Assembly: GCA_029962745.1 (NCBI GenBank)
Contig: CM057153.1
Span: forward strand, 5,947,855-6,011,854
Source: Echinometra lucunter
Lineage: Eukaryota; Echinodermata; Echinoidea; Camarodonta; Echinometridae
Length of the DNA: 64,000 nt
Reading direction: 5' to 3'
Positions 2,416-55,430 of the stretch are shown here, piece after piece. Under the pieces are notes generated by a model. That model was not told the DNA's origin, did no database searches, and saw only the letters and a list, made by a program, of their open reading frames with translations. A program made the position numbers and the translations under genes. Each line of letters begins with the position of its first letter. Position 1 is the first letter of the stretch.

Positions 2416-11561
<9,146 letters not shown>

Positions 11562-13977: not shown

Positions 13978-23126
<9,149 letters not shown>

Positions 23127-24384: not shown

Positions 24385-24613
24385 TTTGAGTAAAATTGGC
24401 AATGCAGTGTAAAATATATGATCACTATTTTTATGTGCAAATTGGCAATTTTTCTGTTAAAATTTTGCAATTTTCATTCACAGCGGTTCATGGTGAATGC
24501 ATTCTTATATTTTCAAACCTTTTAGGAGTGGAAAACAAAAATAATTTGTTGCCAATTTGAGGAAGGAAAGCTGATTAATTTAGCTCTTAAGAAAAATTAT
24601 GTACTGCTATGGG
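24385..24613 (-). mobile_element. MITE family 1 remnant downstream of the gene (copy B)
   Basis: Contig 2 duplicate of 12830-13040, ending GTACTGCTATGGGG. Confidence 0.55.
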
Positions 24614-25193
24614 GTAAAGACTGTCAAGTGTCAATCTTCTTTTTCCTATGAAAGTTACCTATAGGATTTCTTGTCCTTTTTTGCACCTTTTTTCATTCAG
24701 TTTCAAACTTTTGCATTCAGTTTCATCCAGGAAGTTTACAATTTTGCAAATCTCGAGGCCAGCCTTTGGTCATTCATTTTCGAACTTTGTTGGAACAGTT
24801 TTATCAGTTTGTATCCCATCTCATCAAATCATTCAATGGATCGTCAGGTGAGATGAATTTGAATGAAATCTGACAAGAAGGAACTGGTTTGAAACTTACT
24901 ATTGACCAATTTGAATGACAACTCATGAAATTGACATGGGACATTTGCACATTCCATGATTCGTATTAAAGCCAAAATGAAAGTGAACTTCGATGAAATC
25001 GAATGCACAAGGAGGATGGACGGAAATCCTTTATAATTCTAAATGCACCAACAAAAATCATGCTTTTGTGAAATTGATATATTATTTGCATTTTATGACT
25101 ATATGGGTTGCATTTAATATATTTTTAGAATTATGCTAATTTGTAGAGCATGAAGAGCTGTACACTTGTTGCTCCAGAAATGGGTGGATTACT

Positions 25194-25199
25194 AATAAA
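25194..25199 (+). terminator. candidate polyadenylation signal of the palmitoyltransferase gene
   Basis: First AATAAA that I see after the stop codon at 23124-23126, about 2.07 kb downstream. It is kept at 35814-35819 in contig 3. There is no transcript evidence, so the true 3' end is uncertain. Between the stop and this point I see only non-coding sequence and the MITE remnant. Confidence 0.3.
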
Positions 25200-27342: not shown

Positions 27343-27495
27343 GGGCCCAGTTGCATAAAACTTACCACTGATGGTAGCTTTGCCATCAGTGGTAACTTCC
27401 ATGGAAACCTTGAATTTGATTGGCTGCTGAGCAATGTTAGTTACCACTGGTGGCAGAGTTCGCAGAGTTAATTGTAAGTTTTATGCAACGGGCCC
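27343..27495. mobile_element. 153-bp palindromic MITE (GGGCCC ends), contig 2
   Basis: Begins GGGCCCAGTTGCATAAAACT and ends with the near-perfect reverse complement AGTTTTATGCAACGGGCCC. The interior also folds back (ACCACTGATGGTAGC / GCCATCAGTGGTAAC). No coding capacity. The contig 3 copy is at 37966-38122. Confidence 0.75.
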
Positions 27496-27922
27496 AGAAT
27501 GCAAAATTTACATTTTCTTTTTTAAATTTTGCTTTCCCGAAGCGTCTTTTCATGCTTCTGTGTTTTCCTGAGCTAACTTATTAAGACTCGTTCATAGATG
27601 TATATATGAGGAGGGAACCGCAGGGTTTTTGAAGCACTTTTTTTGTGAACAAAATGAAAGGTAATGATGCAACAAAGGACAGCATGAAAAATATTGTGCA
27701 CTCATTTGCTTGCGTGTCACAAAATGCGCTTAAAAAACCCGCGGTTTCCCTCTTCATAACCAAGTTATAAATCAAAACCCAAATTACTTATAACTTTAAT
27801 AGTCATTACTGAACTTTATCAGACTGAATGAATAATAACTTTCATGATTTTTTCCTTTCGTTTTTTCCTGTAAACAATGTCATAAGTCCCTACTGAATGG
27901 GAATATTTGAATGGGCCTTTAA

Positions 27923-28481
27923 TGCCTGGTTTACATTTGGCTTACGATCAGTATACGGAGCCTGTATCCTGCCCGTAAGCCCCTATCCGTGCGGCCTCCA
28001 TGCGGCCTCCATGCAGAGGCAGGCGACAACCGTAAGATTTCAGTACGTATTCACGAGCTCCACAGCCTCTACGATTTTGTATCACGAGGAGTTATACAAA
28101 TCTGAAAAATCGTAAGCCTGTAGCCCGTATACAGCATAGGCAGCATTGCACAATTCCTGCACAGGCAACGCACGGAACACGCGACGCAGCTATACAGACA
28201 CTGCGCAAACTCTGCACGGGCTCCTTACGATTTCCGTGGGGAGGCTGCGGAGATTGCACGATAACCATACAATCTCTGGGCAGCCTCTGTACGGGCAGCC
28301 TCTGTACGGGCATCCTACAGCCTGCCCCCAATGGTCAATACAGGAAATATGGCACCATGACCGTAAATAATGTAAACACAGAAACGCCGTAGTCTGTAGC
28401 CACTAACGATGCCCGAAAAATCGCACGGAAAATCGTAAATCCATTTATCGCGCGGCGCCCATTGGAAATGCAAACTAGGCA
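27923..28481. mobile_element. TTAA-flanked MITE family 3, contig 2
   Basis: Flanked by TTAA on both sides, with ends TGCCTGGTTTACATTT / AAATGCAAACTAGGCA (14 of 16 matching as inverted repeats). The interior is GC-richer than its surroundings and has internal direct repeats: GCGGCCTCCAT twice and CAGCCTCTGTACGGG twice. The contig 3 copy is at 38548-39078. Confidence 0.75.
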
Positions 28482-30993: not shown

Positions 30994-31493
30994 NNNNNNN
31001 NNNNNNNNNNNNNNNNNNNNNNNNNNNNNNNNNNNNNNNNNNNNNNNNNNNNNNNNNNNNNNNNNNNNNNNNNNNNNNNNNNNNNNNNNNNNNNNNNNNN
31101 NNNNNNNNNNNNNNNNNNNNNNNNNNNNNNNNNNNNNNNNNNNNNNNNNNNNNNNNNNNNNNNNNNNNNNNNNNNNNNNNNNNNNNNNNNNNNNNNNNNN
31201 NNNNNNNNNNNNNNNNNNNNNNNNNNNNNNNNNNNNNNNNNNNNNNNNNNNNNNNNNNNNNNNNNNNNNNNNNNNNNNNNNNNNNNNNNNNNNNNNNNNN
31301 NNNNNNNNNNNNNNNNNNNNNNNNNNNNNNNNNNNNNNNNNNNNNNNNNNNNNNNNNNNNNNNNNNNNNNNNNNNNNNNNNNNNNNNNNNNNNNNNNNNN
31401 NNNNNNNNNNNNNNNNNNNNNNNNNNNNNNNNNNNNNNNNNNNNNNNNNNNNNNNNNNNNNNNNNNNNNNNNNNNNNNNNNNNNNNNNNNNNN
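30994..31493. other. 500-N assembly gap 2
   Basis: Exactly 500 N. The left flank (ending TTCCGTTTTCAT) continues at about 42683. The right flank (starting TTTTCCTGTAGTGTTTTCCA) repeats 20874 onward. The gap marks a join of overlapping contigs. Confidence 0.95.
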
Positions 31494-31504: not shown

Positions 31505-33770
31505 TGTTTTCCAGCAACGTTTGCAACCATCCTGGTCTGCACATGGTCTTCTTAGCAAACAACGTCTTCATGTGGTTCACGTTTACAGAGCATACGCAAG
31601 AGATCCGGGCTTCTTACCCAGAAATTCGCCAGAATATGACCAAGCTATCAGACAGGTATACACATTAATGAAGGGAAATATGCTTCGTTGTAGGGACATC
31701 CCAATGCTCAAGGGGAATTTCTGTAGGCTTTTTTATTTCATCCACTTTGTAGGGTTTGGGTTTCAATTGGGTTTTCAGTTAAGGTTTAGGGTTAGGTTAG
31801 AGTCAGTTGAAGTGTTCAGTCTATTGTTGATGTTATGGATTCATTTATGTAAGAAATTGATATCAAACCATTTAGTACACTCTTTTTGAGTGTGCAGGAG
31901 CTAAATCGCTTGCCTTTCCTGTTTATTTTTCTCCGCTGCCCATATTGTTTCACAGTTTCATAAATGCAAACAATTTCTTCTGCCTAGGTTTGCACAACCT
32001 GACAAGTGAAAGCAGGGCTACAATTCCTAAATGTATTATTGTATTATTCTCACATGCAGGTTGCACAGTTTGATGAATGGAAGCAAGGTCGTAACCTCTA
32101 AGCAGACTGTGTCATACATGTAGACTTGTGAAGCCATACCGCACCAAACACTGCAGAACGTGTAACAGATGTGTGCTTCATTTTGATCATCATTGTCCAT
32201 ACATATATAACTGTGTTGGTTTAAGGAACAGGTAAGACCTGAACCTCATAGGAAATAGTTGAATTTAGGCCATTAGAATCATGTGAGACTATAGGACGTT
32301 TCTATCCTACTTACTATGCACATATGACTTGAGAAAAATAGCTGTATTGTGATCAAACGGTGATACCATAAAGCAACATTTAGTCAGTTGCTATGTATAA
32401 TTTCTTTTTTTTTCAGTTCCTTTTTGATATGATATTGAATAGAATACCGTGTGGAGATACATTTACTTAATCACCCGGTAGAGATACATTTACTGAATCA
32501 CTCATTTAGAGAACGAATTTTCAGTTCACGAACATGCCATTGAAATAGTGAAGAATTTCATCTCTGTGATAATACCTATTTCCCACTAGAATTCCCTTGA
32601 TACATTTTCAACTGCTTTCTACTTTCTAAACCTTCATTTACTCTGTTCAAACTTTTAACTGTCTGTCCCTCTGATTTTCTTTCTGCTTTTATTCAAAACC
32701 AACGTGAATATCAATGTTGGATGCTATAAACTAGACCCAACTTTGTACTGTAAGATATATATGAAAAGTCAAAGCTTTGAAACTTTATGCAAATCTGGAT
32801 GGTTGGGTAATTTTTTGTATGTGTATTTATTATTTTTTTATTATGCATACTTATTCCTTACATTTCCTTATGTCTGTCATGACAGAACATACTTCATGGC
32901 TTCACAACGTCAGTATCAACAATGATGATGATGGTGATATACTTTGCTGTTATTTTGATGTCGAAGGAGGGATGGAACTGGCTCTATGTCTTTGGCATCA
33001 TAGAGGCCATCTTCTTTGGGATCATTGCAACTGGTCTCTGCTCAATAGGGGTGAGTTAAGATCGTTTTTTAAAAGATTAGCTCAAATTGTAGCATGGATT
33101 GAAAGGTTTACATGTATGTTATTAGAACATGAATTCACAAAAGTGATGGAAAAATTTAATTGTTGTACATGTATACCATGTTTGGTAATGTTAACACAAG
33201 TTAATTTTTCCATGATCGTCATGAAATGCCTTGTCATGATTTTGAGTACTTGGTATAAGTAAGTTCTGTGATTCTTAATATGGCATAATCCAGTCTGGTA
33301 TAAAGATTATAAAGATTATCATCTTGCTGGATAATTCTGTCCTTTTGGCCTGTTCTGTCTGTTTTTCACTCTCTCTCTCTCCCTCTTCTCTATATCTCTT
33401 TTCTCTCTACCCTTGGTGCCACCCGCCTCGTTACTACCCCATCTGTCCCTAATTCACTGCTCTATTTTGTCTCTTCTCTGTCTCTGTCTTTGTCTCTATT
33501 CTCTGTCCTCTCTGTCTCTCGTCTCTCTCACTTGCCCCTGCTCACTCCTTTGTCCTCTCTACCTGCAGTGGTAAATGGGCTTGCCGTGTAACATTAACCA
33601 CCAATGAACGGATCAACTGCATAGCGATACGATTACCTCAAAGACGCCAGCCGGTAACTTTCACAATCCTTACCGATAAGGGTCTCCTTCATAACCTTGA
33701 CGAGTTCTTCAGACAAAGAACCATATGACAGACGGAGGAGGTAGATCAGTCAAGGATCTATGTTGTATGA
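31505..33770 (+). CDS. ankyrin-repeat DHHC palmitoyltransferase, contig 3 copy (C), 3' part only
   Basis: Exons 7-10 only: 31505-31655, 32060-32231, 32886-33050, 33569-33770. Exons 1-6 are absent because the contig begins two bases before CTGTAG of intron 6. The DHHC exon keeps the full motif, with two synonymous changes against copy B (a Cys codon TGT for TGC and an Arg codon AGG for AGA). Exons 7-9 each have one or two single-base deletions, and exon 10 has many indels, including a TAA near its start. Errors cluster near the contig start and in the CT-rich tract, so poor sequence is likelier than a true pseudogene, but I cannot exclude a damaged allele. Confidence 0.75.
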
Positions 33771-35029
33771 TTCCTGCTTATGAAATGACACGGGCCAGTA
33801 TTCATAAAGCCATACTTTTGTTCAGTTTAAACTTGAAAGTGGGTTGTTGGTCCTCTAATTCAACCCACAGCAGTACAGTGTCTCCCCAGATAGACCTTTG
33901 CAGTATCTCTCGATCCAAAATTCTAGGAATAACATGTTATCAGAGGCTTGCCACCTTTAGGAACAAAAATAGGTACTCTGAACTTCAAAAAGGTTTTGTA
34001 TTTTTTTGCCAAAAATATAATATTTTCTTCAGAATCATGTGGAGGATAATTTTAAAGCACTGCTGCAGTGCAATGCTTCATTTGAGAGCAAGTTAACATA
34101 CAAGGACATTCATTTTGAATAGCTTTGTGTTTAAGGCTGTATGCTCGATGTAGGTACAGTGTACTTACTTGAACTGAACTCCGCATCTATCCTCTCTCTG
34201 GGATCTGCTACTCTTGCATTTTGGAGATTGCTTTCACTCAGACTTGTCCTCCATTATGACAGTAGCATTATCTGCTGCAAGACCCCATCAGAGCCAATTT
34301 GATGCTTCCCCTTCATTCAATTTGATTCATATTTACAGATTTGACACAAGTTCAGGAATATTTTAGTGGAAATCGGTCAAACCAAACTTTGAGATGATCG
34401 CCTTGGATACCACACAAATAGTTGTAGTTTGGCAAGCTGGAAACCAATGTAAATTAAATAGTCTGACTAGTAATGTGCGAGTTAGGTAACAGAACACATT
34501 TTTTTTTTTTTAAATAGTGGCTGCGCAACACAATAAGGAACTCTTTCCAAATCATGAATGTTAATGCCAATAATATGATTTGATTGAAATCTACCTGTTG
34601 TTTCTTCACTGAGGGTCTGTGCAATTGATGTAGTTTTTGTTCTACAGCAAGAAAGTTTCTCTGCTATCTGGCTACCTGGGAACTTTTTTTTCACTAAGCT
34701 TGTCAGATGATATGCTATTGCAGTGGGCGGATTGTGTTCAGTCAAGAACCTCGGCTCGTATGCTTGTATATCCTGGGCACAAGAAATGTGAAGTGTTTCT
34801 GCTTCTTTCTGAAGCAGCCACAGCTGAATGGTGGACTGACTGCATGAGCAAATGAATGTCACTCGAACTCCTGTGTCCAATGGGTACGTTACATGTACAC
34901 AATGTACAATGTACATCTAGCTTAGGTCTGACCTTTTCTGGATGCATTTACCCAAGTCCATTTCTTGATATAATTGTCCTTGAAAATTGTTTCGGATATG
35001 CTGATGAGAGTTTACCTTTGAGGCCATTT

Positions 35030-35250
35030 TTGAGTAAAATTGGCAATGCAGTGTAAAATATATTTCTATGTGCATATTGGCAATTTTTCTGTTAAAATTT
35101 TGCAATTTTCATTCACAGCGGTTCATGGTAAATGCATTCTTATATTTTCAAATCTTTTAGGAGTGGAAAACAAAAATAATTTGTTGCCAATTTGAGGAAG
35201 GAAAGCTGATTAATTTAGCTCTTAAGAAAAATTATGTACTGCTATGGGGT
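35030..35250 (-). mobile_element. MITE family 1 remnant downstream of the gene (copy C)
   Basis: Contig 3 duplicate of the remnants at 12830 and 24385, ending TGTACTGCTATGGGG. Confidence 0.55.
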
Positions 35251-37965
35251 AAAGACTGTCAAGTGTCAATCTTCTTTTTCCTATGAAAGTTACCTATAGG
35301 ATTTTCTTGTCCTTTTTTTGCACCTTTTTTTCATTCAGTTCAAACTTTTGCATTCAGTTTCATCCAGGAAGTTTACAATTTTGCAAATCTCAAGGTCAGC
35401 CTTTGGTCATTCAGTTTGTATCCCATCTCATCAAATCATTCAATGGATCGTCGAGTGAGATGAATTTGAATGAAATCTGACAAGAAGGAACTGGTTTGAA
35501 ACTTACTATTGACCAATTTGAATGACAACTCATGAAATTGACATGGGACATTTGCACATTCCATGATTCGTATTAAAGCCAAAATGAAAGTGAACTTAAA
35601 TGAAATCGCAATACACAAGGAGGGAAAATGGACGGAAATCCTTCATAATTCTAAATGCACCAACAAAAATCATGCTTTTGTGAAATTGATATATCATTTG
35701 CATTTTTATGACTATATGGGTTGCATTTAATATATTTTTATTACAGAATTATGCTAATTTGTTAGAGCATGTAGAGCTGTACACTTGTTGCTCCAGAAAT
35801 TGGGTGGATTACTAATAAACCAGCTGGTTTTAACAGTCACCATGATGAATACACCCCTTTTAATTAAATGATGGTACCTTTTTTTTGTATCCTAGAACCA
35901 TTTTTTCCAAGATAGCATGTTTTTTATGCAAATTGATATCAGCCATAGCAGAAATTATGAGTGAGGTATGTTTATTGTTTTTTCATACTAGTGTTAAAAC
36001 AAGAATATTTTCTTGGATTGGATCCACAGTGACTCTGAATTGAATCAGTAAAAATGGTCATATGAACAGCAAAATTCTAAAGACCTGGTTCTGTCTTTCT
36101 TGTGTAGAGCCACATACAATTGTCACAACAATTGAACATTGTTATTTTACAGTAATTTAGTAACTAGTTGATTTCACAGTTGTAAATCACTGTATACATA
36201 TATAATTGAATGAAAAATGAAAGAGTAATCTTGCCAGTTTTTAATTTTCTTCATTTTATGTTAATTTAACTCCCAGTTATATACAATTTTTATTCATTTA
36301 TGACTTATATTATATATGCACCAGGAGCTTGTGCAATTATTTAGAAAGATTGATATAATCTTGACAAATGTGAAGTGATCAGATTATTAACATAAAGTAT
36401 GTACTGCATCAGGTATTACTGTGCAAAATTGGTATATGTTATTTTAATGTCTTGCAAATGTTCAAAAATTCTTAGTATTTATTTTAGATCATTATCGACA
36501 CTTTAATACTTTTTTCCCCACCCCAAATAATAGTAAAATTTGTATGTTGGCACCATCAAGTGCTTTGTGGATCATGTAAAATGCATGCTCTTTGTTGAAG
36601 AATGTCTATATTCTTTCATTTGAAAAAAAAAATATTATGGTGCCTTCAAAAAACTAACCTGCAGCACTTGTCTATTTTCTTAGGATTGTACTGCTAAGGG
36701 TGAAAGAAATTTCCTATAACCTTCATAATCAAGCTTCATCATGAACTGGTCATATATATGATTGCCAAAAAAATTCTATGGAATGATTTATCGAAAATTG
36801 TACTGATATTCTCTGTACATAATTTGATGAATGATTTCTGTACAACTGTACATACATTGAAATGCCTGCAATATTTATTCTTCTGTAAATAGACTTGTCT
36901 CTGTAGGTTTGGCCGTATGTACATGTATGTGGGAGAATGTAGAGTTTATCATTTTACTGTTATCTTCAATGTATGTTTACATGCAGAATAATGATTTGTA
37001 TACGGTAGGTTTTTCAGCTGTGGTATTTAAAGAGAAGGCAACAATATGTAAAATCCATCAGAATTCAGAAATTTATGTGTTGCCAAGCATGATATTTCAA
37101 AAAACAGTCATTGATTCCCTTGTGCAGTTTCATATGTTAACACCAAAATGCTTCAGTTTTTATTACTTATACAAGAGATACAGAAAGAAATATGGTATAC
37201 TTTTTGGATGGGTTAGGTATTTAATTTCTTCTTGCCGAACCAGAGAACGCCGTTTTCAATCCCAGCGGAATCACCTGTTCCCATTTCCTAAGGAATAAAG
37301 GGGCAGTCCATCATGATCAATTTCATGGGAAGAAATGGAGAAAAATTAGCAGAAAGCCTAATATAAAAAGCATGTTAAAAACAATGCTTTTAAGTTCAAG
37401 TGCATGAAAAATAAAAGTTGCCTGTAACCTGTTGGACATGATTTGATTTGGTATATCACACATTTTGCATAGACTCCGGCCCAAGTTATCTTCTATTGGA
37501 TCTCTTGATTTATTTATCGTAATGTTCTTTTCTAATCTAAAGAACAATTTCATTAAAGTCTTTCTGATTGGTTCCTTTTTATTTTTCAAATAAATGTGAT
37601 TATGATGGACTTCCCCTTTATAATGTTGTTTGTTCCTTCCTATTTGGTAGCATAGTCCCATTTGCAAAATGGGCCATTATAGAAAGCTTTTAGAAAGGAA
37701 GTGACCACTCTTTTCTGTTATTTGCTTTGTGTAATGTGATCAGTAAGTACATAGCTTCCAATAATACGTTATTTAGAAATAATAGAATACAGATTACTTT
37801 CTTTTTTATTATTTTGTAAATTGAGATTTAATGTCTCATCCATTGTAAAAATAAAAGAAATGAAATACGTACATTTGAAGTGTGAACATTATTCCAGTTT
37901 GTTCTGATCTTGCGTTTCTCTCTGTACCATAGCTACATGTACTTAGTAGCACAAAGAAGCAACCA

Positions 37966-38122
37966 GGGCCCAGTTGCATAAAACTTACCACTGATGGTAC
38001 CTGGTAGCTTTGCCATCAGTGGTAACTTCCATGGAAACCTTGAATTTGACTGGCTGCTGAGCAATGTTAGTTACCATTGGTGGCAGAGTTGGCATTAATG
38101 GTAAGTTTTATGCAACGGGCCC
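37966..38122. mobile_element. palindromic MITE (GGGCCC ends), contig 3
   Basis: Allelic copy of 27343-27495, with a small internal insertion (GGTACCTGGTAGC) relative to contig 2. Confidence 0.75.
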
Positions 38123-38547
38123 AGCATGCAAAATTTACATTTTCTTTTTTAAATTTTGCTTTCCCGAAGCGTCTTTTCATGCTTCTGTGTTTTCCTGAGC
38201 TAACTTATTAAGACTCGTTCATAGATGTATATATGAGGGAAACCGCAGGGTTTTTGAAGCACTTTTTTTGTAAACAAAATGAAAGGTAACAATGCAACAA
38301 AGGACAGCATGAAAAATATTGTGCACTCGTTTGCTTGCGTGTCACAAAATGCGCTTAAAAAACCCCTGGTTTCCCTCTTCATAACTAAGTTATAAATCAA
38401 AACCCAAACTTACTTATAACTTTAATAGTCATTACTGAACTTTATCAGACTGAATGAATAATAACTTTCATGATTTTTTCCTTTCTTTTTTCCCTGTAAA
38501 CAATGTCATAGTCCCTACTGAATGGGAATATTTGAATGGGCCTTTAA

Positions 38548-39078
38548 TGCCTGGTTTACATTTGGCTTACGATCAGCATATGGAGCCCGTATCCTGCCCG
38601 TAAGCCCCTATCCGTGCGGCCTCCATGCAGAGGCAGGTGACAACCGTAAGATTTCAGTACGGATTCACGAGCTCCACAGCCTCTACGATTTTGTATCGCG
38701 AGGAGTTATACAAATCTGAAAAATCGTAAGCCTGTAGCCCGTATACAGCATAGGCAGCATTGCACAATTCCTGCACAGGCATCGCACGGAACACGCGACG
38801 CAGCTATACAGACACCGCGCAAACTCTGCAAGGGCTCCTTACGATTTCCGTGGGGAGGCTGCAGAGATTGCACGATTACCATACAATCTCTGGGCAGCCT
38901 CTGTACAGGCATCCTACAGCCTGCCCCCGATGGCCAATACAGGAAATATGGCAACATGACCGTAAATAATGTAAACACAAACGCCATAGTCTATAGCCAC
39001 CAACGATGCCCGAAAAATCGCACGGAAAATCGTAAACCGATTTATCCTGCGGCGCCTGTTGGAAATGTAAACTAGGCA
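38548..39078. mobile_element. TTAA-flanked MITE family 3, contig 3
   Basis: Allelic copy of 27923-28481. The right TTAA has become TTAG, and one of the internal direct-repeat units is lost. Confidence 0.75.
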
Positions 39079-42700: not shown

Positions 42701-45700
42701 TGAAAGACCGTATGCTCAGTAGCAAAGACAGTTTTAGGACTTTGTTTCACTAAATAATGGATTAAAAGACCATATGCTCAGTAGCAAAGACAGTTTTAGG
42801 ACTTTGTTTCACTAAATAATGACAGGCTATACTAAAGCTAATAAAAATTCTTTCCAGGTTAAACAGGGTGGTATAATTATGTAAAAATTCAAACAGAGAG
42901 ATTAAGCGTGACTGTGCTAATGAGTCCAATTACTAGCTGTAAGGGAGTAAAACTTTAAAAGGCAATACAGAAGCATGCTGTCATGTCTGATGAGGGTTTT
43001 TATGGACTGATGGAAATTATTAGCAGCATGTGGCACTTGGCTGTTAAAAGCATAACCAAAGCAGTGCAACAGTTATAATTTGACTAATGTTTGGAAATCA
43101 GATAATTTGCTTGTGTAAGATACAATGTACTTAACCCATTGGGTAGTATGCCCGAGAGAACTCTGGCTTGAGTCTGTGAAGAATTGCTTTTATGCCCAAA
43201 TCAAATGGCATTCAACTGGTTAATGGAAGATTTCATACAGAGTGCTTGTTCGGCAGGGGTTTCATTAATAATGAACACAGAGTAACAGATATAATCATAA
43301 TCAAATAGGTTTATTACAGTGTGTCTGGTCCAATATAAGTCATTTACGAGTCAGGTAATTTGGACATTAGGGAAATTTGTACATAAATGAATTACGATAG
43401 AGGTAATTAAAAACTTTTTAACCCATAGAAGTACAGAGCTTTGTAGAAGTCTAAATAAACCATCTTCAATCCTCAAATTGGCAACAAATATTATTTTTTT
43501 TCCACTCTTACATAATTTGAAAAAAATAAATATAGATATAACATGAACCAAAATGAATTATGACTGCAAAATTTAAGCTGAAACTGCCAATTTGAACATG
43601 AAAATGGTGATTATATTATATTCACTGCATTGCCAATTTAAAGAGTTTAATGATTAGCTACATTTCAACTCCTCTAATTTGAAAATGCAACATCATTCTG
43701 CACTGGGAATGGACTAAAAACTTTCAGTGAATTTTTCTCTTTCTGCTCATGTATAGTGTGTAATGCCCAGTATTCTGGATCAGCAGATACTGCCAAAGCA
43801 TCTCCTAAAGGAGAAACTGTACCTCTATGGGTTAAAACCAACTGACTAATGTAACTGAAGTTCAGATAAATAAAATACATACTATATTTACAAATATATT
43901 ACAATATACTCTTTCCACAAGTTAGGTACAAATGATTTCTTACATTTGTTCAAGAATGGAGGTCTTATGCAGAAAATCTGTTCTAAAATAATATAAGATA
44001 TTATTCCCCGAACCCCCCCCCCCCCCCCTCCACAAAAAGAAATTTACCTGCATTTATAGTGATATATCATAAATGATGCAAACATTCTTGGATGGAGCAA
44101 CTAACACTGTGTGCTACGTCTCTGCACAAGAACGATACTGGTAGTGCCTAGTGCCCCCCCCCCATGCTCCCTCTTTACTCACTTTGAAGGTTTGCTGAAT
44201 GTGATCACAAACTTCTGAAAGATTTGCTAACCCCTTTCCAAAAACATCTGCAGCAGAAGGACCTATAAAAAAAAATCAAAGAAGAAACATAAGGAAAGCA
44301 AAGGAAAAATAATTAAAACACGAGAAACATTTCAGTTTCCTTTGAAATTGAATTCAGTTTAAAAAAAAACCAACAAAAACGTTGATAGTGCCATCTATAT
44401 TTAAATTTTTTTTTAAAAAGTATCCTTTCACATCTGCCTTGAATCATTAAGTGAGAATAGGAATGTTGTTAACTAACATGTACACCTAAAATTTCATTAT
44501 AATCCAATATTTAATATGAAACAATAAAGAATTCCATAATCTTAGTCTGTTTTGGTATAATGCATGTTTGATTTTAAAAGGCATGTTTGAAGTTTAAAAT
44601 TGGCGCTTTTTTTCTGGTAATTCTGTTACCGAGGTGTTTTACCACAATACCATGAGTGTAAGAATAAAATTGCTGGAATGAAAGAGCTCACATGAAAGAA
44701 TGAACATATTTATAGAGTATTAGATGGTTAGAAGGGAGGCAGAGTACAAAAGAGGCACAGAAAGTCTAAAAATGTTGGTAACGGAATTACAAACTTCCTG
44801 CAGAAATGCCCTTATGCCAACTTTCACTTGTAACAAATTAAAGTTCAAACAATAAAAAACGTGACTGTGGACGGAACCTTTAGTCTGTATCCTGAGGTTT
44901 ATCCTGTGCTCTGTAGGATGAGGGACACTGTAGCCGCAGAACTCCACATCAGGGCTGATGAAAAGACAAAGGAACAATCAACGTTTCAGGGTAGTCATTA
45001 TTTATCCATTTATCAAAGATGGTCCACAGTGGGTGGATGGGATGATAACTTTTGATGTAACATACAAATTACATGAGCAGAAAGACCAAAAAATTCTTCA
45101 AATATTGTGCCCATTTTGGTTGTTTCAGTATTTTTTGCTTGATGCTGAAATTTCTTAAAGGAAAATAAGCACTAAAATTCCTGAAATTGGCAATGTCATG
45201 GAATTATATTGTGAAAGAAACTCTTCCAAAGCAATTAGGAAAGTCATATAAATTGTAAATAAAAACAGGTGTCTAGTGTGAGATCTGGGGATTATCATAT
45301 TGCTAAGAATTCCCTGAATTTGATAACCAGATAGATTAATGAAATAATAACAGTGGCAGATTTGTATCCTCCCCCTCATTTACAAAGTCAAATGGCACAT
45401 AGTTAAGTATATAATTCAAAGTTGGTGCCCTTCCCCCTTTTGCTTTTGAGGTGAGCTTTTTCTTTTGATAGTCAGATTTTTTTTTTTTTGTGAAGAGATG
45501 TCCAATATTTACAAACATACATGTAATGACCATTTTTCTCTTTAAAACTTAAAAAAAAAATCCCCTTAAATATATCTGTAAAGCTTTAATAGACATCACA
45601 GATGTATTATATGATATATAAATCTAGAATTTTATTATCATTTCATTATTATACTTACTCCTTCATGATCATGTATCTCAGAGCATTGCCAAGTGTATGA

Positions 45701-48700
45701 TCCTCATTGTGCATTACAAACGTTACACAATCGCTCTTGTCCCAGTTATCTGTAGTCTGAGCAGTTTGGACCTAACAAACACATAGAATTTGATTGGATT
45801 TGATTTGATTTGATTTATTTTTCTGTTTCACAATATATACAAACAAAATTAAGAATACAATCTCATTGAGACAAAAGTAATGGAAATGACATAAAATAAA
45901 GAATAGAACTATACTGAGATACTTATAAATAATACTGACCAGACTGAGAAAAGGATATAGCAAAACGGAGGGGCAAGCTAAAAAAGCAATGCTTGTGAGG
46001 TCCAAGCCCCTGAAACTTAGTTATATAGTACATAAGGTCATAAGCGAATACTAAAGCAATACAAAGTAGAAGATACAAATTAATAGCATAATCAAAACAA
46101 TTGAGGTCACACAAATCTAAAATAGATTAAAAAAAGACAACAAAGAGAGGAAAAGGGTGGGAGGTGGATAAAGAAAGAGTGTGATATAAGAGAGGGGGGC
46201 AGGAGTGTTTAGGCATGGGTTGTTCACAAGTAATGACTTGAGAAGATACTTCTTAAGTTTACGCTTAAATGTGTAGAGGCTAAGGGAGTCTTTAATTTCG
46301 TTGGGTAAAGAATTCCAATAAATTGCTCCTGTGAAAACAAACGTGTTTTGGGCAAAGACTGTTCTTGTGAGTGGTATATGAAAGGAGTTATGTTGTCTAG
46401 TAGGATAGGTATGCATAGAAACATTTTTGCGGAACATATCAGTAAAAATATTGGGTACATCACATTTTTCTAGTTTATACATAAAATAAAAGGTAGGTCA
46501 AAGAAAAATTTTCTGAAATAGTTGCCACATCAAGCCGAGCCAATCTCCTCCTTCTAAAAAATCATTCCACCATTAGCCAGCTTCTTTAATATCTTGTAAC
46601 ATTTTTACAGAAGAATATTACAACATCATCTAATACCCTCAAATTAAAGAATTATGACAAAGAAAATGCAACAGTTGGCAAGAGAGACAAATATAATGGG
46701 AACTCCATGAAAAAGCTTTGGAACTTGCCCCATAGACATCTTCACTGTGACCATAGGCCCAAAAGTGACCCCAAATAAATGGGCTATGGTAATGTCATCA
46801 AATCAAGCAATTTTCAGATCCACCACAATTTGGTCTCCAGACAAGACCATGATACAAGCAGGGTTCTCACTAGAAAAAAATCCACACATGGTTCCCCCTC
46901 TGTGCAAAGCGTGGAAGTTTCGGAAGTTTTACGGAATAACGTGTAAAGTTAGGTGTGGCGGCAGTATATGCTATAGCAAAAGGATGGAAAAATACTTCTT
47001 GGTAAACAGGAGTTGTTTACTAATGGCATTATAGTAAAAGTACACTGCCAAATAGCAAAACAATCTGTGGCATTTATCATTATTGTTAGGAATATATACT
47101 CCAATATTTTTTACCCTTGTTGCCACGCATGGTGCAGCAATTTCACACATGGTTCTTCCTTGTCTGAAACCCTCTACACATGGTATTGGAACCATGGGTG
47201 TTATGTACTGGTGAGAACCATGGATACAAGTGGGCCATAAGTGAAGAAAATGCTCAGCTGCAGCTGAGCAGTCGAGCCAGACTCGGCAGAGAGTAATGTT
47301 ATGTTGGCATTCTATGGCCTCACACTAACTGCAACAGAAATATTCAACCAGTTTTAGATATCCACATAATAACATACACATGTATAAAAAGTCCTAAAAA
47401 ATCTTAGTGATGGAAAGCATAAAAAAAAATAGTGAGATACAATATTCAAAAAAAATATATTACTCCTAACATGCCTAAGCCTTTTAAATGTTGATCAAAC
47501 CATATTTTTCACAGTGCAATTTTCACATTTTCATATTTTACTTAAAATTCTCATAAATACTGCCATTCATTTCATTCTTCTTGCATTTTTAACTTTAAAG
47601 TCCAAGGACTTAAAATTTTTCATGTTCAACTTACGGTATTAAATCCCATCAGTCAGCACTTCTTAAAATTTTGTAAAATGCAAGTATTTGTGTCTTTATT
47701 GCATCATTTAGGAATATACTGTCATTATCTTTACCATCATTCAACCACGGCAATGTAGCTTGTTATTTTGAATACCAATCTCAACAAAACCAATCACGCC
47801 ATAACAACTGGAAGAAATATTGTGTTTACCAGTGCCAACAGTAGAATAAAGTGGCATCAAGATGCTGTAATTTGTGTTTCAGAAACAGGGAACTATCTAT
47901 ATATCATTGGTATGAGATCTCGTCTGTTTATGTTTATGTATCCATGATTATATTTTGATTAGGATTCTATTCTTTATAGATCAATATAAATATGTTTAAA
48001 CAGTTGATGGACCTTATCTACAAAAAAAAAAGTGTTAAAAGACTGACAGTATGAATATACTGTTAAAATGTAATTATCCAAAAATATCCTATTGCAGACC
48101 CTGGGCTCATGTTTCCTCTCATCACATGGTCCATCAAGAGACTATTATAGAAAATCCTTATCAGTACAAAACAAGTTAGAGGGGGCCCAAGAGAAGAAAA
48201 GGGAAAGTAAAAAGAGGATTTCATGAATGCTCCCCCCCCACTTGCCTAGTCTTGTTGCTTCTTGGCGAACACTCCCCCTCCCTCCCCCCCCCCCCCACCC
48301 CCATTACTGGACCTACACTGCTCTGTCACGTGGAAGTGGGACACAGAGATATACAATAATAACTCAAGCAGGAGTACACACGCTGTAAAAATCACCACTC
48401 ACACCAGTGCTCGGTTATACTGACCTCGCACAACAGACATGCTGTAACATGCAAATTGTTGACAATAGGAAAGTAGTGTTCTCTGTCCAATTCATTGGAC
48501 AGAGGAGCAAGAGCTGTGTCACCAGTGATCAGAAAAATATTTTTCAAAATTCACTTGATCAAGATTATAATTTACATCCAGTTGGAGGAATGGAATGGAA
48601 ATACATGTAGGCTATTTCATTATCCTAGGCTAGCCTAGAGTAAAAAGCAAATATTTCATATGAATTTGTTATTTTGGTGATTTCTATCTTTGACTATAGA

Positions 48701-51700
48701 GGGCAGTATTCCACATTTTATTTGCACAGCTCAGCATGCCAATGTAGCCCTGTGTGAGAAATCACATGTACGCTTTGCTTTGTTTGGATATACATTTCAG
48801 TCTTGACGACTGAGGAAGAATACATAGCAAACATAGATCTACAGTAGCAGCTGCGTTACTTAGTATAGGAAAGCCGCTATAAGTGTTTCTCCCTAGTCAA
48901 TTTTTTTTCTTTTTCTTTCACCCTTTATAGGTGCATTTATTTTCCAACAAAAATCTCACATTGGGTTACAAAGCCATATAACATTCTACAAATACAGTTT
49001 CAATGTTTCAGGCAAATTGTACATTTTTCGTTTTCCCTTTTTCACAAGAGCATTATTGTTATCGATTCGTATTTTAAGTTCCTTCAAAAAAGTAAACCAC
49101 AGTCTTTTCTTCCTTTCATCTGTTCCCTTTTCGTTCCTCAGAATCAATATTTTGCATATGCTCCAGAAAGCAATGGACATGATATCATCAATACTGTTTT
49201 CTTGATAATTTTTCAACAAAGTATTAATGTCAAAGCAAAGTTCTATGTTATAAACATTCTTAACCATCATGAATAGATTATCAAAAAAAGGAATGTTCAT
49301 TTTGCATTTCAACAAAACATGAAGTAGGTCTTCTGTGCAATTACAAGCTTCACACTTATCAGACTTGCTAAGTTGCCATAAAAACAACATCCTTCTAGTA
49401 GGAATCAAGTTATACAGCATTTTGAAATTAAACTGTTTCAAATTGTTTTCTTTTGTATTTTCCAGATTTCTTTGAATGATATTTTTCCAATTTATGTAAT
49501 CATCAGTTAAGTTTGTCCAGTATGATCGACCATCACTACTTCTTTCATATGTTAATAAGCGTATCAGGACAACTCCCCCGGGGACGACTCCCACCTGACA
49601 ACTCCCCCGGAGGACAACTCCCCCACAGAACGGGTCCCCCGGAGGACATCTCCCCTGGAGGACAACTCCCCCGCAGGACAACTCCCCCACAGGACGGGTC
49701 CCCCGGAGGACATCTCCCCTGGAGGACATCTCCCCTGGAGGACAACTCCCCCGCGGGACAACTCCCCTGGAGGACAACTCCCCCAATAAAACTTCCCCGG
49801 AGGACAACTCCCCCGGAGGACAACTCCCCCGAGGACAACTCCCCCGGAGCACAACTCCCCGGGGGAGTAAGGACAAAATTACGCATGAATTTTTGTTTTT
49901 ATGACAACGCCTTGCTCGTGAGGAACTGTAAAATAAATCTTTCCTTTTTATAAATCAAACTTAAGTAATTAATCCAGTATTTTTTGTTTTTATTACAACT
50001 CTTCCGGAGGAGAACAGCTCCTCGGGGATGACAAACGGGGATGGGCGAGGGTAGAGGGTTGTTATTCGTTTAATAAAGTATTAGGTAATTTGTCGCTCTA
50101 ACTGCTAACTTTTTTGAAAAATACCCACCCTTTTGCTCCCATTTTTACGCCAAAGTACACGTTCAAGAAAATAAAACTCTAGTAATGGGTACGCTTTTCC
50201 GCCCAAGGGTGTTGGGTTTGACAGCTTCAGCGGCACACTCCAATCGGAACCAAATCTGATCATGAGAAGAGAGAAAAGAAAGGAATAAAATGAAGAAAGG
50301 AAACCACATTGCTAGATTCTTATGATTTGACATATTTGGACACATATTGAGCTTTGATATCTAAATTCGCTGATGAAATTAATCATTTTTCTTACTTAGA
50401 ATATCTACATTCAGCTGACCTGAAACCTAGAGTTTTTATGTATTTGTTCTTCGTATTTTTTCTTTGTTATATAGAGCCTAACAGTGCCTAAAGAAATCTT
50501 TCAGTCATAAAGCTTGGAGAAAACTTTAGTTTACTCATTAAAAATTACACTAATCCAGTCCTTGTTTGTCAGAAAACATTTGATTCCATAATGTTTGCGT
50601 ACAAAAATAAACAAACATCAAACATGATATGACCATTGCAACTATGTTTCAATTGGTGAAACTTTGGCTTACTAATAAAACTTATTAACAAATGTGTTTT
50701 ATACAATATCAGTTGTATTAGTTGGAGAATGGAAAACAACAATCACACAAAACAAACATACATTAACAAAACAAACATACATTAGAGTGGGTGCAAAAGT
50801 TTGAAGAAAAAAAATCCCTAAGAGACACAATTTCGTTTTTAAGTATTTATTTTCTTGAAAAAAACCGTTAACAAAACAAATGAAATCATTTCAAACATTA
50901 TGTCAGAGATACAAGTATTTATGTAACGCTATCATCATCATTGAATGTAACATCATATAGAAGAACTGTTTTATATTTATCAAAAAACAAATAGACATTC
51001 TACACCTGGACGATATTTTGTGTGTGTGTGGGGGGGGGGGGGGATAGGTGATGACCCGCCACATTTCGAAGTTTGGAAGTTGGTGTAGTACATCTATGGG
51101 GCAATCCCCCCCCCCCCCCCAAATGAGAACCTTTAAGATTATGGCATAATGTTCGGAGGGTTGGGCCTGGATGATTACATTAGAAGACGAAGTGATGGAT
51201 CAAAACGACTATATATAAAGAAATAAGAAGAAGAACAAATACATAAAACCTCTAGGTTTCAGGTCAGCTGAATGTAGATATTCTAAGTAAGAAAAAATGA
51301 TTAATTTCATCAGCGAATTTAGATATCAAAGCTCAATATGTGTCCAAATTTGTCAAATCATAAGGATCTAACGATGACTTTTCCTTTTTGTTTATCTTTT
51401 ACTCTTGAATGAGGTACTTTATAATTAATGTTTTCATGTGGTTTCAGCGCAAAGAATGATAGTCGCACATGCTTGCTGGACGCTAAATACGTAGAAGCAC
51501 AAGTCCTTTAACAAAAATGAAATTAAGAATACATGCATTCAGTATAAAATTCCGTTAAGGTTTTATTTTCATTTATAGTCAGTGAGTTTAACAAGGGGGC
51601 GGGATACCGGATCTCGGGGGGGGGGTGTTGTTGACCCCTCCCCTAAAAAGTAAGATTTTTAATCTGATATCTTGCCTAAAATTGTGCATTTAGGAAAAAA

Positions 51701-54700
51701 AAAAAAAAGAACGGGACCCAATCACAGCTGCTGATCGAGCGAAATGACTTCTGTTCTTAAGCTCGATTGTGGCCCATATCCCCCTTTTCCTGAAGACTAC
51801 GACTAGATACACCATTCTCTACTTTTGTAGCTTCCTACTTAGGTTCCTCACTTTCCTTTCTTCATTTTATTCCTTTCTTTTCTGTCTTCTGATGATCAAA
51901 TTTGGTTCCGATGGGAGTGTGCCGCTGAAGCTGCCAAACCCAACACCCTTGGGTGGAAAAGCGTGGCCAATACTAGAGTTTTTATTTTCTTTTGCTCCTC
52001 AATAAAATGGGAGCAAAAGGTTGGAAATTTTCAAAAAAGTCAGCAATTAGAGCGACAAATTACTGTATAGCTTATTAAACTAGTAAAAACCTTCTACCCC
52101 TCCCCAATCCCTGTTTGTCATCCTCGAGGAGCTGCTCTCCTCCGGGAAAGTTGTAATAAAAATACTTGATCAATTACTTAAGTTTGATTTAAATTTTAAA
52201 AAAAAAGAAAAAGAAAATTTTTTACCGCTCCTCATGTGCCAGGCGTGGTCATAAAATCAATTTTCCTCCGGTCATTAATCTTGTCCTCAAAGTGGGGGGG
52301 GGGGGGGGGATGTCCTCTGGGGGAGTTGTCAGATGGGAGTCGTTCCCGGGGAAGTTGACCTCCTGGGGATTTGTCTTCCGGGGGAGTTGTCCTCGGGGGA
52401 GTTGTCCTCCGGGGGAGCTGTCCTCGGGGGAGTTGTCCTCCGGGGGAGTTGTCCACCGGGGGAGTTGTCCTCGGGGGAGTTGTCCTCCGGGGGAGTTATC
52501 CTCCGGGGGAGATGTCCTCCGGGGGACTCGTCCTCCGAGGGAGTTGTCCTCCGGGGGAGCTGTCCTCCGGGTAGTTGTCAGGTGGGAGTTGTCCCCAGGG
52601 GAGTTGTCCGCCGGGGGAGTGGTCCTAGAACCGTTAATAAGATATGATAAAACACTTTACTGGAACAACACTTCCATTCTTTTTCTTTTTGACGCACTGG
52701 TATTTTTGGAATTTCTAACAAACTGGTTTCCTTTATATTATTCATCCAAACTTTCGGTACTGCCTTTTGTAATTTGGAATAATCAAATAGGACTCTCGCC
52801 TTTGTTTTTTCAGCTTGAAAGTTTTCTTCCAATTTTGAAAGAGATATAAATTTACCTTCAATACAAATATCTTTCAAAAAAATTATATTACTTGAGTACC
52901 AATCTTTGTAGAAAAGTGGTTGATTATCATGAACGATATATTTGTTATACCATAAAATCTGATTATTTGAATGAATATCGTCCTTTTTGATATTTCCTTT
53001 TAAATATGACGCTTTTATCAGTTCTACATAAAACCTTGGCAGTTTGTTAACAAGACATTTTTCTACCATGTATTGATCAATAGTACAATTTAGAAGGAGT
53101 TAGAGACCTCCAAGTGTTTGAAAGTATATTAATGCAAAATCCTTCCAGTATCCATGTGTGTCATCAACTATTCTAGCCAACCACTTCAATCTAAAACTCT
53201 GTATCAGTTTCTGAATATCAATCATTCGTATGCCACCATCCTCGTAATCTCTGACAATCATTGTTCTTTTCAATTTGTCAACTTTTGAATTCCCTCCCTA
53301 GCCAATTAATCAGGATTTTATAGCCCCAAATGAGCCAGATGAGATGTCATCTGAAAGTGTACCCTTCAGAGCTCAGTCAGTGAAAGTTGTATCAATCATT
53401 TTGCGTGAGGGAATAGGAACCCATTTGAGTGGAACCCACTTGTGTGGAGAGTTTCGCATCAGGAACAAAGCATTTGGCATTAAATCTTTCGTAAATTGTT
53501 GAAGCGAAGAGTTCTTCTTGACTTTAGTCTAGAAATTGAGGGGGGAAAGAACCTGAAGAATAACCGAGTTCAAATAAGTGTCCATTTTTAGCTTAAGAAA
53601 GCTATTCGTGTTTTTATTCTGATATTTCACGAATAGCTTAAGAGCTCTGTCATTTGCCCCTGTGGAGACCCATGTCAACAAAGAAATATTATACCTCCAA
53701 ATCACACTTTCTCACGCCTGGTTAGCGCTGCAAACTACCTTCAAAGTTTGCCAGTGGACCAGTAGATCTAACTGTGATATTAGAACCTAAAATTTATTTT
53801 TCAAACTCAAAATATTGACTCTGATTGATACAAGAAAAAACTTTCTTGGCAATTTTGCTGCGTGATTAATTTCCATTTCAATAACACGACCTCCAACAGT
53901 CATAGTGAGTTCACCTACACCTGCTGGTCTCGGCCACAGGTGAAGAGCGGTACAGCGTTGCACTCTCGCACGTACTCTGCGTTCGCCGATACGTGCGAGA
54001 GTGCAACAATTTAAAACAGCTCAAGTAGACCCAAGTTACAATATGTGTAACTTTAGACTACATTTCTTCTTCTTCTTCTTCTTCTTCTTCCTCCATTATA
54101 GTTAGCCTACAGGCTCCTGGAGAGTAAAAAAAAAAAAAAAAACACTAATGCTACTACTCTTCACGGAGCCTAGTGTTTTTACCTATCTCGCTAACGTAGT
54201 AGCCATTTCGCCACTTTAAAACAACCCCTGGAAAATGACTTTCCCATGGGCCAATGACACTACCAGCCTTGTATCGGCTGTGGGCATAATGAACCCGACT
54301 GACACCTGGGACTAAAATATTAATAACAGAGAAATGAAATTTGAACAAAAAATTTATCGTACGGAAACTGGTAAAACTCAGCGATGTTTATGATTCCCTG
54401 CCGTCCATTGTAATGCAGATTGAAAATGGCGACTATCTTGTGCATGCCCATCGATGCGCAACTAGATGCGAGCGATCTTGCAGATTTCACGAAATTTACA
54501 GTGAGATTTGTCACAAATTTTGTGACAAATTTTGTGGAATCATAAACATTGGTGAGTTTTACCAGCTTCTGTACAATAAATTTTTTGTTCAAATTTCATT
54601 TCTCTGTTATAAATATTTTATTCCCAGGTGTCAGTCGGGTTCATTATGCCCACCCATAGACTCTAGGTCAAAACAGCTTTTTGAATAGCGAAACAAATTG

Positions 54701-55430
54701 CCAACGCGAACGGGAAATACATTGACTTAGATCTTCTATAAAAGAGAAGAAAAGTTTTGATTTTACTTACAAGCAATGTTCCTGAGGCTCTCAATTTTCC
54801 CCTTTCTGCTTCATATCTGATGAATGAACTGAAAATGGTGAATTTTAAGAAAAAAACCGACGCTTATCAGACTCGTAGGTCGACAGCATGTCGTCGAGTA
54901 ACCAATAGAAAAGCATGCTATGTTGTTTCAGTACAGACTTGTCACATTTTCGGGACGAGGTCAATTGACCGAGTACACAGGATGAGTGCATTATGCCCAC
55001 AGCCGATAGTTACAAGGCTGGTAACATTAAGTGTCAATTGGCCCATGCCAGGGAAAGTCATTTTCCAGGCACATGCCAGGGGGTTGTTTTGAAATGGCGA
55101 AATGGCTAATATGTTAGCGAGATAGGTAAAAACACTAGGCTCCGTGGAGAGTAGTACTAGAAGCGTTAGCGTTTTTTTGTTTTTGTTTTTTTACTCTCCA
55201 GGAGAGTTATAGTCGGAGATCATCGGCACTCGGGCTTTTGCTGCAGATGGTAACAGTTACATCATGTTTCTCGACGTGTGGGACTGAACAAAATCACACG
55301 GCATTTCTGTGGGCTAATATACTACCAGAATATCATGCACTGAACGATTTTTCAAACATGCAAGAAACAACATGGTAATTTCACTTACAACCCCCAGTCT
55401 ACCGCTTGATTTGTTGTCTGAATCTGTCAT
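39720..55430 (-). CDS. POLR1D: RNA polymerases I and III subunit RPAC2 (complete, five exons)
   Basis: Small RPB11/alpha-like subunit that pairs with RPAC1 to nucleate Pol I and Pol III in the nucleus. Coding exons in transcript order: 55389-55430, 45659-45771, 44878-44954, 44183-44262, 39720-39764. They sum to 357 nt (118 residues plus stop), against 133 in human. Family signatures: [42 protein letters not shown], and the C-terminal helix [10 protein letters not shown] joined to [10 protein letters not shown]. Phases agree at all junctions. Donors are GTAAGT or GTGAGT except after exon 3 (GTTCCG, weak). The ATG has A at -3 and an in-frame upstream stop at 55482-55484. Intron 1 (about 9.6 kb) is full of mobile elements. 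The gene is convergent with the palmitoyltransferase. The 14-codon first exon and the exon 3 donor are the least certain parts. Confidence 0.9.
40162..40570. mobile_element. intact piggyBac-type MITE, family 1, present only in contig 3
   Basis: 409 bp with perfect 14-bp inverted ends CCCATTCGTGACAG / CTGTCACGAATGGG, flanked by TTAA at 40158-40161 and 40571-40574. The matching site in contig 2 (29602-29605) has a single TTAA and no insert. CCC-starting ends and a TTAA duplication are hallmarks of the piggyBac superfamily. No transposase is encoded. It lies inside the block that flanks the last POLR1D intron. Confidence 0.9.
41200..42515 (+). mobile_element. LINE 3' end fragment, contig 3, split by a DNA transposon
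   Basis: Same LINE tail as 30240-30830. The ORF2-like frame is interrupted after GSTAWNSI by the 713-bp insert at 41385-42097 and resumes with PSSLRQTQF at about 42107. The 3' end carries AATAAAGATTGAATG. Confidence 0.7.
41385..42097. mobile_element. hAT-type non-autonomous element with internal minisatellite
   Basis: Ends CACTGGCGTAAA / TTTACGCTAATG (10 of 12 as inverted repeats) are flanked by 8-bp near-identical target copies ACTCTATA / GCTCTATA. Contig 2 has the uninterrupted site at about 30420. Inside are G-runs and C-runs near the ends and five tandem units of about 74-83 bp (41530-41930), each with ACTTTTCTGGTTTTTAAT and CAAATAGAAATTCTAAAATA followed by GCGAGCGAAGCGAGCGAGCC-like purine motifs. 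There is no transposase. An 8-bp duplication fits the hAT superfamily. Confidence 0.85.
42697..42820. repeat. 62-bp tandem duplication
   Basis: Two adjacent units, GGATTGAAAGACCGTATGCT... and GGATTAAAAGACCATATGCT..., both ending TTTCACTAAATAAT. Only a few substitutions separate them. Confidence 0.85.
43132..43223. mobile_element. possible very short TTAA-flanked insertion
   Basis: TTAA, then CCCATTGGGTAG at the left; CAACTGG then TTAA at the right, about 90 bp apart. The inverted match of the ends is weak. It may be a deleted family 1 MITE. Confidence 0.3.
43422..43831. mobile_element. intact piggyBac-type MITE, family 1 subtype
   Basis: 410 bp with ends CCCATAGAAGTACAG / CTGTACCTCTATGGG (14 of 15), flanked by TTAA on both sides. 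Interior blocks such as CTCAAATTGGCAACAAATAT and GCCAATTTAAAGAGTTTAAT relate it to 40162-40570. It sits inside POLR1D intron 4. Confidence 0.85.
45040..45235 (-). mobile_element. MITE family 1 remnant in POLR1D intron 2
   Basis: In reverse orientation it matches 40162-40570: GTGCCCATTTTGGTTG, TTGATGCTGAAATTTCTTAA, AGGAAAATAAGCACTAAAAT and GAAATTGGCAATG. Both ends are lost. Confidence 0.55.
45785..46482 (-). mobile_element. LINE 3' end (CR1/L2-like tail) in POLR1D intron 1
   Basis: The minus-strand frame 46117-46482 has the classic ORF2 C-terminus: [18 protein letters not shown], then [14 protein letters not shown] and [11 protein letters not shown]. After the stop, the 3' UTR ends in a short tandem repeat of AAATC units (plus strand GATTTGATTTGATTT at about 45793), the kind of tail used by CR1/L2-type elements instead of poly(A). 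It is 5'-truncated. Confidence 0.75.
46500..48890. other. intron sequence with nothing recognised
   Basis: AT-rich POLR1D intron 1 sequence with a C-run near 48280. I see no exon-like segment, RNA gene or clear mobile element in it. Confidence 0.5.
48900..53300 (-). mobile_element. 5'-truncated LINE ORF2 fragment, split by the foldback element
   Basis: The two minus-strand halves, 52642-53300 and 48986-49550, are continuous once 49560-52632 and one 9-bp repeat are removed. The upstream half has [18 protein letters not shown] (post-RT region) and [19 protein letters not shown]. The downstream half has the Cys/His cluster [17 protein letters not shown], and its frame ends at 48986. A T-rich stretch at about 48900 on the plus strand would be the poly(A) tail. 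A few stops show that it is dead. Confidence 0.75.
49560..52632. mobile_element. 3.07-kb foldback transposon, TU-like, with 9-bp target duplication
   Basis: Flanked by exact GTTAATAAG at 49551-49559 and 52633-52641, inside the LINE frame. Each arm has an outer array of 15-16-bp units of the type CCCCCGGAGGACAACT (left 49565-49866; right 52310-52625 as GGGGGAGTTGTCCTCC) and an inner domain (left about 49870-50470; right about 51205-52290) that are reverse complements of each other, about 85-90% alike by eye. The right inner arm carries an extra segment of about 450 bp (51375-51840). The centre (about 50475-51200) is single-copy and has no transposase frame. The architecture matches what is described for sea-urchin TU elements and Drosophila FB elements. 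Confidence 0.85.
53957..54007. other. perfect 18-bp stem hairpin
   Basis: GTTGCACTCTCGCACGTA at 53957-53974 and its exact reverse complement at 53990-54007 are separated by 15 bases. It is CpG-rich compared with its surroundings. It may be a transposon end or a structured RNA. Confidence 0.7.
54061..54091. repeat. (TTC)n microsatellite
   Basis: About nine TTC units adjoining the left side of the foldback structure at 54114. Confidence 0.85.
54114..55204. mobile_element. nested foldback element just downstream of POLR1D exon 1
   Basis: Outer inverted ends CTCCTGGAGAGTAAAA (54114) / TTTTACTCTCCAGGAG (ends 55204) are followed inward by matching arms: AAACACTA.GCTCCG, CTATCTCGCTAACGTA, CCATTTCGCC and GTGGGCATAATG on one side, and the complements at about 54985-55140 on the other. 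Inside the left half is a second palindrome (about 54283-54655) with arms such as AACAGAGAAATGAAATTTG and CAAATTTCATTTCTCTGTT. Overall it forms two stacked inverted repeats with no transposase frame. A target duplication is not clear. Confidence 0.65.

Follow-up and report, generated by a model that had tools for sequence, protein, structure and literature searches.

What kind of mobile element is the 3073-bp segment with inverted arms at positions 49560–52632 of a 64,000-nucleotide stretch of the sea urchin Echinometra lucunter (contig CM057153.1, 5,947,855–6,011,854 of the forward strand; hereafter the window), and which enzyme moves it? We read the segment, with considerable though not full confidence, as a foldback DNA transposon that is non-autonomous and belongs to a high-copy sea-urchin family. 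It would be moved by cut-and-paste in trans, most likely by a transposase of the Mutator-like element (MULE) type (FLYWCH-MULE, Phantom-like). The palindromic target preference is the most distinctive trait of the family. The kind itself is already known, as Mutator foldbacks are on record whose tips are asymmetric (Tm1) or whose arms contain tandem repeats (Muta1). No publication on the present family was found in the literature searched, most subscription papers and Repbase being outside its reach.

Anatomy and copies of the element

The inverted arms, the outer arrays and the exact 9-bp flanking copies of GTTAATAAG on both sides had all been described in a first-pass annotation of the window, and are confirmed by the arm pairs and by Tandem Repeats Finder (TRF). 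GTTAATAAG occurs on the plus strand of the window only at these two places, and its complement occurs once, at 50681 within the element. TU elements, the classical sea-urchin foldbacks, have 15-bp outer units and 8-bp duplications. The arrays of the window element, annotated as 15–16 bp, have a TRF period of 16 with some 15-bp steps among the units, and the 15 bp typical of TU is not the dominant unit. Complementarity of the arms is 92–95% in the longest inner pairs and 71–93% in the outer pairs. Long inverted arms with internal tandem repeats, which define Foldback (FB-type) elements, are found in the window element and in its family. The inner domains are inverted as annotated, but the arms are unequal. 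Compared with three long copies (L062, L063 and L064), the right arm is full, at about 1.6 kb, and the left arm is 744 bp long and lacks about 0.46 kb, the counterpart of 51388–51851; its inner end at 50296–50465 joins 50303 across this missing stretch. The pair 50296–50465/51217–51387 is thus not a domain of its own. We considered it as a separate nested miniature inverted-repeat transposable element and rejected this, since in the long copies it belongs to the arm, as its inner end.

The genome searched comprises 743 Mb in 2266 contigs. The exact 20-mer of the left tip occurs 459 times, and exact words of the right tip occur 161 times (20-mer) and 577 times (17-mer), while tip patterns read backward, used as controls, do not occur. 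With the inner domain of the left arm as query, all 40 scored places match, and the 39 other than the window do so at 96–97% identity, a value that leans high because the scored places are the best 40 of 575 candidates. The arm search proposed in the first-pass annotation therefore found copies in abundance, against the case of no other copies that it had set against itself. That the segment is no transposon but arose from tandem repeats by misassembly or recombination can practically be dismissed. Arrays do invite assembly errors, and two N gaps lie in the window, but such an origin is contradicted by the hundreds of copies that share both tips and by duplications at unrelated loci.

Nearly all loci that extend to the outer end have one of two tips there, CGTATCA or, from the other side and in inward reading, GGTTCTA, with GGA and then the array behind it; a few differ by one base or are truncated. 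For pairing, 100 of the 459 left tips and 100 of the 577 right tips were taken; the 74 left tips in the region common to both sets were compared with the right tips within 20 kb, and 50 of the 74 were paired while 24 were not. Thirty-one of the pairs are miniatures of 141–220 bp, whose lengths fall into clusters about 16 bp apart, and the other 19, two of which share one right tip, are foldbacks of 1494–5733 bp. No pair among these 50 is longer than 5733 bp, with most of the genome lying outside the pairing. Several copies, each about 2.7 kb long, are palindromic over almost their full length, for example L003 (7–2677 of 2683) and L029 (7–2759 of 2765). In the three long copies (4565, 5350 and 5733 bp), a middle of 1.6–2.8 kb separates arms of about 1.45 kb. 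Because the tips are asymmetric, inversions of the middle between the arms can be read from sequence. By hand count, the middle is oriented relative to the tips as in the window copy in 10 copies and the opposite way in 21; the tipless records L019, L022 and L040 were dropped, records of one element were merged, many records have a single tip, and L032 and L035, within the 10, share flanks and may be one copy. Inversion of the middle through pairing of the arms would yield both orientations.

Target-site duplications and target preference

Large copies were collected by similarity to the window arm, which gave 19 records with both tips at up to two substitutions per tip. L037 (the same element as L014) and L065 and L066 (204-bp miniatures with shared flanks and no duplication) were left out. 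Fifteen of the remaining 16 copies, the window copy included, have an exact 9-bp duplication, and the only other, L007, has an exact 8-bp duplication within an AAT repeat. Among 20 miniatures, 12 have exact 9-bp duplications, two have 9-bp duplications with one mismatch and one has an exact 8-bp duplication. The tabulation of lengths that had been proposed thus gives a duplication at all 16 large copies and at 15 of the 20 miniatures. These lengths lie within the 8–10 bp given for the Phantom group in a MULE survey (PMC6446971). In the first-pass annotation, a length of 9 bp was suggested to mark a variant or a different group, closer to FB/MULE-type insertion; this length recurs at other copies, and the build is closest to that of Mutator-type foldbacks.

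One 204-bp miniature stands in the same flanks at three places (L065, L066 and L107), without duplication, and by eye these flanks look mutually inverted. The shared flanks and the missing duplication suggest that it was probably copied within a larger repeat.

The 23 exact 9-bp sites give the consensus ATAT-RTTNNNAAY-ATAT, an AT-rich palindrome. Mirror complementarity is 75/184 at its centre and at most 65/184 at 28 other centres, and the sets of left flanks (62 sequences) and right flanks (46), which come in part from shared elements, have mirrored preferences. These 23 sites are also the ones from which the motif was first derived, so it was retested across the size classes. With a matrix from the 12 miniature sites, the true offset, out of 53, gives the 11 large-copy sites their best average score; with a matrix from the 11 large-copy sites, the true offset is again the best on average for the 12 miniature sites. 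None of 20000 random-offset draws reached the observed sum in either direction. Individual sites ranked 24th or worse in 3 of 11 and 1 of 12 cases, so the motif is a preference and not a rule. The window site, ATAT-GTTAATAAG-ATAT, agrees with the consensus at 13 of 14 defined positions.

Transposase and related foldback systems

All 41 candidates for a MULE domain in the genome were scored, and 18 are matches. One of these matches lies in an element with foldback build, 7528 bp long, at C1810:3372–10899 (L085 from 873, and L086). Its gene consists of two open reading frames (ORFs), or exons, with the FLYWCH and MULE domains in the first; both are colinear with a Lytechinus variegatus protein, and the two exons are 81% and 83% identical to it. 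The element carries 15-bp arrays in arms about 680 bp long; its tips are GGTTTGG and GGTGCCA, and the duplication at its site, GGCAACCT, is an exact one of 8 bp. Its relatives on C7 and C16 (L087 and L088) carry the same array. We regard it as a candidate for an autonomous sea-urchin element of the Phantom type. Like the present family, the C1810 element has array-bearing long arms, a short tandem unit, one tip starting GGTT and an 8-bp duplication, which occurs in the family as well; it differs in its two-exon transposase, its 15-bp units, its unrelated arm sequence and the lack of ATAT flanks. A resident FLYWCH-MULE foldback shows that the right kind of enzyme, within an element of the same architecture, is present in the genome.

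The closest described systems include Tm1, a Phantom-type Mutator/foldback element of root-knot nematodes. It has mostly 9-bp duplications (PMC3169594), and shares with our family the layout of asymmetric 7-bp tips followed by GGA and short tandem units in the inverted arms, as well as miniature forms. Tm1 differs in the tips themselves (A1 CGGTTAA, A2 CCTACCC), in a unit of about 14 bp, in having some copies with transposase, and in that no target consensus is reported in the available part of its description. Muta1 of Aedes aegypti is an active foldback-type MULE with 8- or 9-bp duplications and array-bearing derivatives (PMC5225508); foldback-type arms, subterminal tandem repeats, duplications of 8–9 bp and many non-autonomous derivatives are common to both, while Muta1 has 145-bp arms, a palindromic 10-bp terminal motif, a transposase of its own and, as far as the available account goes, little or no target preference. 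Tetris of Drosophila virilis is likewise a non-autonomous foldback, whose arms contain tandem repeats; it has 8–10-bp duplications and was placed in Mutator without a transposase; it differs in its 220-bp repeat units and its three structurally complete copies (PMC4079207). Three features point to a probable MULE-type transposase, namely duplications of 9 bp, a layout like that of Tm1, and the FLYWCH-MULE foldback that the genome contains, though the autonomous copy is missing.

In the mechanism that we propose, the DNA-binding domain of the transposase would read the 16-bp units beside the tips and bring both arms together. Binding of arm tandem repeats by a transposase domain has been reported for Galileo, a P-type foldback (PMC3688188). 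The enzyme would then cut at the asymmetric 7-nt tips and join the ends to target DNA cut with a stagger of 9 bp, ATAT-RTTNNNAAY-ATAT being the preferred site, and gap filling would produce the 9-bp duplication. The near-palindromic arms may lose, gain and exchange pieces, which would account for unequal arms, both orientations of the middle and array-only miniatures.

Several observations weigh against a MULE-type enzyme acting in trans. The first-pass annotation had suggested a search for intact copies with a transposase between the arms; none was found in the copies read, and the three long copies, whose check included Pfam on two ORFs of L062, have no recognised transposase. Five FLYWCH-MULE proteins compared by tblastn with the 19 both-tip records gave nothing significant (best E 2.4). 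The 18 MULE matches have no family arms or arrays within 1.5 kb. This is a weak negative, since an arm may be more distant; sequences close to the 10-base tips do occur beside the matches at chance level. By blastn at E 1e-3, the 19 both-tip records share no arm or array sequence with L085–L088, and by eye there is no ATAT at the C1810 site or in the left flanks of its two relatives. Five of the 20 miniatures (L089, L092, L099, L100 and L107, the last with the flanks of L065 and L066) have no in-register duplication. Tm1 (PMC3169594) and Muta1 (PMC5225508) are both described, in the sections available, without clear target preference.

It is improbable, to our mind, that the enzyme is of a non-MULE kind (P/Galileo-like, Merlin or another that makes 8–9-bp duplications) and that the foldback form arose independently. 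Foldback arms do arise in several superfamilies, for example in Galileo (PMC3688188), and no partner with the family tips was found; but a MULE agrees better with duplications of 9 bp and with the tip layout of Tm1, in a comparison that included no genome search for other superfamilies.

A second alternative, which we regard as possible but doubtful, is that the family is the classical TU foldback in another species, with the same mechanism, and that the 15-bp and 8-bp figures of TU reflect differences of species or copy. The label TU-like given to the element at first is right as to the sea-urchin foldback build: the host, the long arms with outer short tandem units and the inner unique domains all agree, 15-bp units are found among the 16s, and an 8-bp duplication occurs. 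However, the dominant unit of 16 bp and the duplication of 9 bp miss the TU values, and the element type in this genome that has 15-bp units and an 8-bp duplication is a different one, of the C1810 type. TU is set apart here by these two figures, not by sequence. The TU alternative overlaps with the preferred reading of a non-autonomous, MULE-type foldback, because TU may itself be MULE-type. We put forward tentatively that sea urchins hold a distinct MULE-foldback group, in which 15–16-bp transposase-binding units, asymmetric 7-nt tips and the palindromic ATAT-9-ATAT target might form one recognition system; TU elements would be its non-autonomous members, and the missing transposase might be a FLYWCH-MULE protein that acts in trans only or has been lost.

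Reports of foldback elements in sea urchins go back to 1983 (cited in PMC4079207), and no transposase is named for them in the literature searched. In the present family the marked ends number in the hundreds, the target signature is cross-validated, and a candidate transposase class occurs in the same genome, and therefore the question which enzyme moves such foldbacks becomes testable.

Two further MULE loci are recorded here. On C3, a 15-bp array remnant (TGACATTTTTACCTC) at 1984–2056 of L083 adjoins a damaged MULE match. L068 (C15:10292350–10295643) holds a second, divergent FLYWCH-MULE gene, about 25% identical to C1810-type relatives, with irregular GGCACTTATCAGAA repeats upstream. It was rejected as a partner of the family, as the adjoining sequence contains irregular repeats and not the 16-bp arrays.

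Host site and neighbouring features

When the flanks are joined with a single 9-mer, an open minus-strand frame runs across the insertion site, so the restored frame claimed in the first-pass annotation is borne out. Its placement in a long interspersed nuclear element (LINE) holds in part. The frame is LINE-like and its distal piece has a weak match to zf-RVT (PF13966) of 23.7 bits, under the cut-off of 27.5; the proximal piece has no match in Pfam. The frame probably belongs to a LINE, a label given as probable because its basis is the weak zf-RVT match and the look of the frame. The further claim, of a position in intron 1 of POLR1D, agrees with the downstream exon, which matches RNA_pol_L_2 as expected for POLR1D; "intron 1" is partly a by-eye placement, because exon 1, at about 55390–55430 on the minus strand, was read by eye alone. 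All features are listed in Table 1.

Table 1. Features of the foldback element and its host site in the window.
Feature	Position	Strand	Remark
POLR1D-like exon, downstream end of host intron	45661–45771	-	PF13656, 32.5 bits, over cut-off 27
LINE-like frame, distal piece	48986–49550	-	weak zf-RVT match
Left flank ATAT of target palindrome	49547–49550		sequence and family preference
Left target duplication GTTAATAAG	49551–49559	+	identical to right copy
Left tip CGTATCA, then GGA	49560–49566	+	same tip at other copies
Left outer array, 16-bp units	49566–49860	+	TRF, 18.8 copies
Left arm, inner domain	49861–50303	+	inverted counterpart 51852–52302; 39 other scored places at 96–97%
Left arm, inner end	50296–50465	+	inverted counterpart 51217–51387; comparison with L062–L064
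Middle	50466–51216		orientation opposite to middle of L062, L063 and L064
Right arm, inner domains	51217–52302	-	includes 51388–51851, counterpart missing from left arm
Right outer array, 16-bp units	52303–52626	-	TRF, 20.9 copies
Right tip GGTTCTA (inward reading)	52626–52632	-	same tip at other copies
Right target duplication GTTAATAAG	52633–52641	+	identical to left copy
Right flank ATAT of target palindrome	52642–52645		sequence and family preference
LINE-like frame, proximal piece	52642–53099	-	frame only

A second nested inverted-repeat structure lies in the same intron, at 54114–55204, with arms at 54126–54228/55080–55182 (85%) and 54280–54397/54536–54653 (94%). The two N gaps of the window, of 500 N each, are at 13071–13570 and 30994–31493. 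Elsewhere in the window, similar ORF translations recur by eye at 5168–6617 and 16718–18302, about 11.5 kb apart, and at 22128–28392 and 32765–39075, about 10.6 kb apart; by eye, these look like large tandem duplications.

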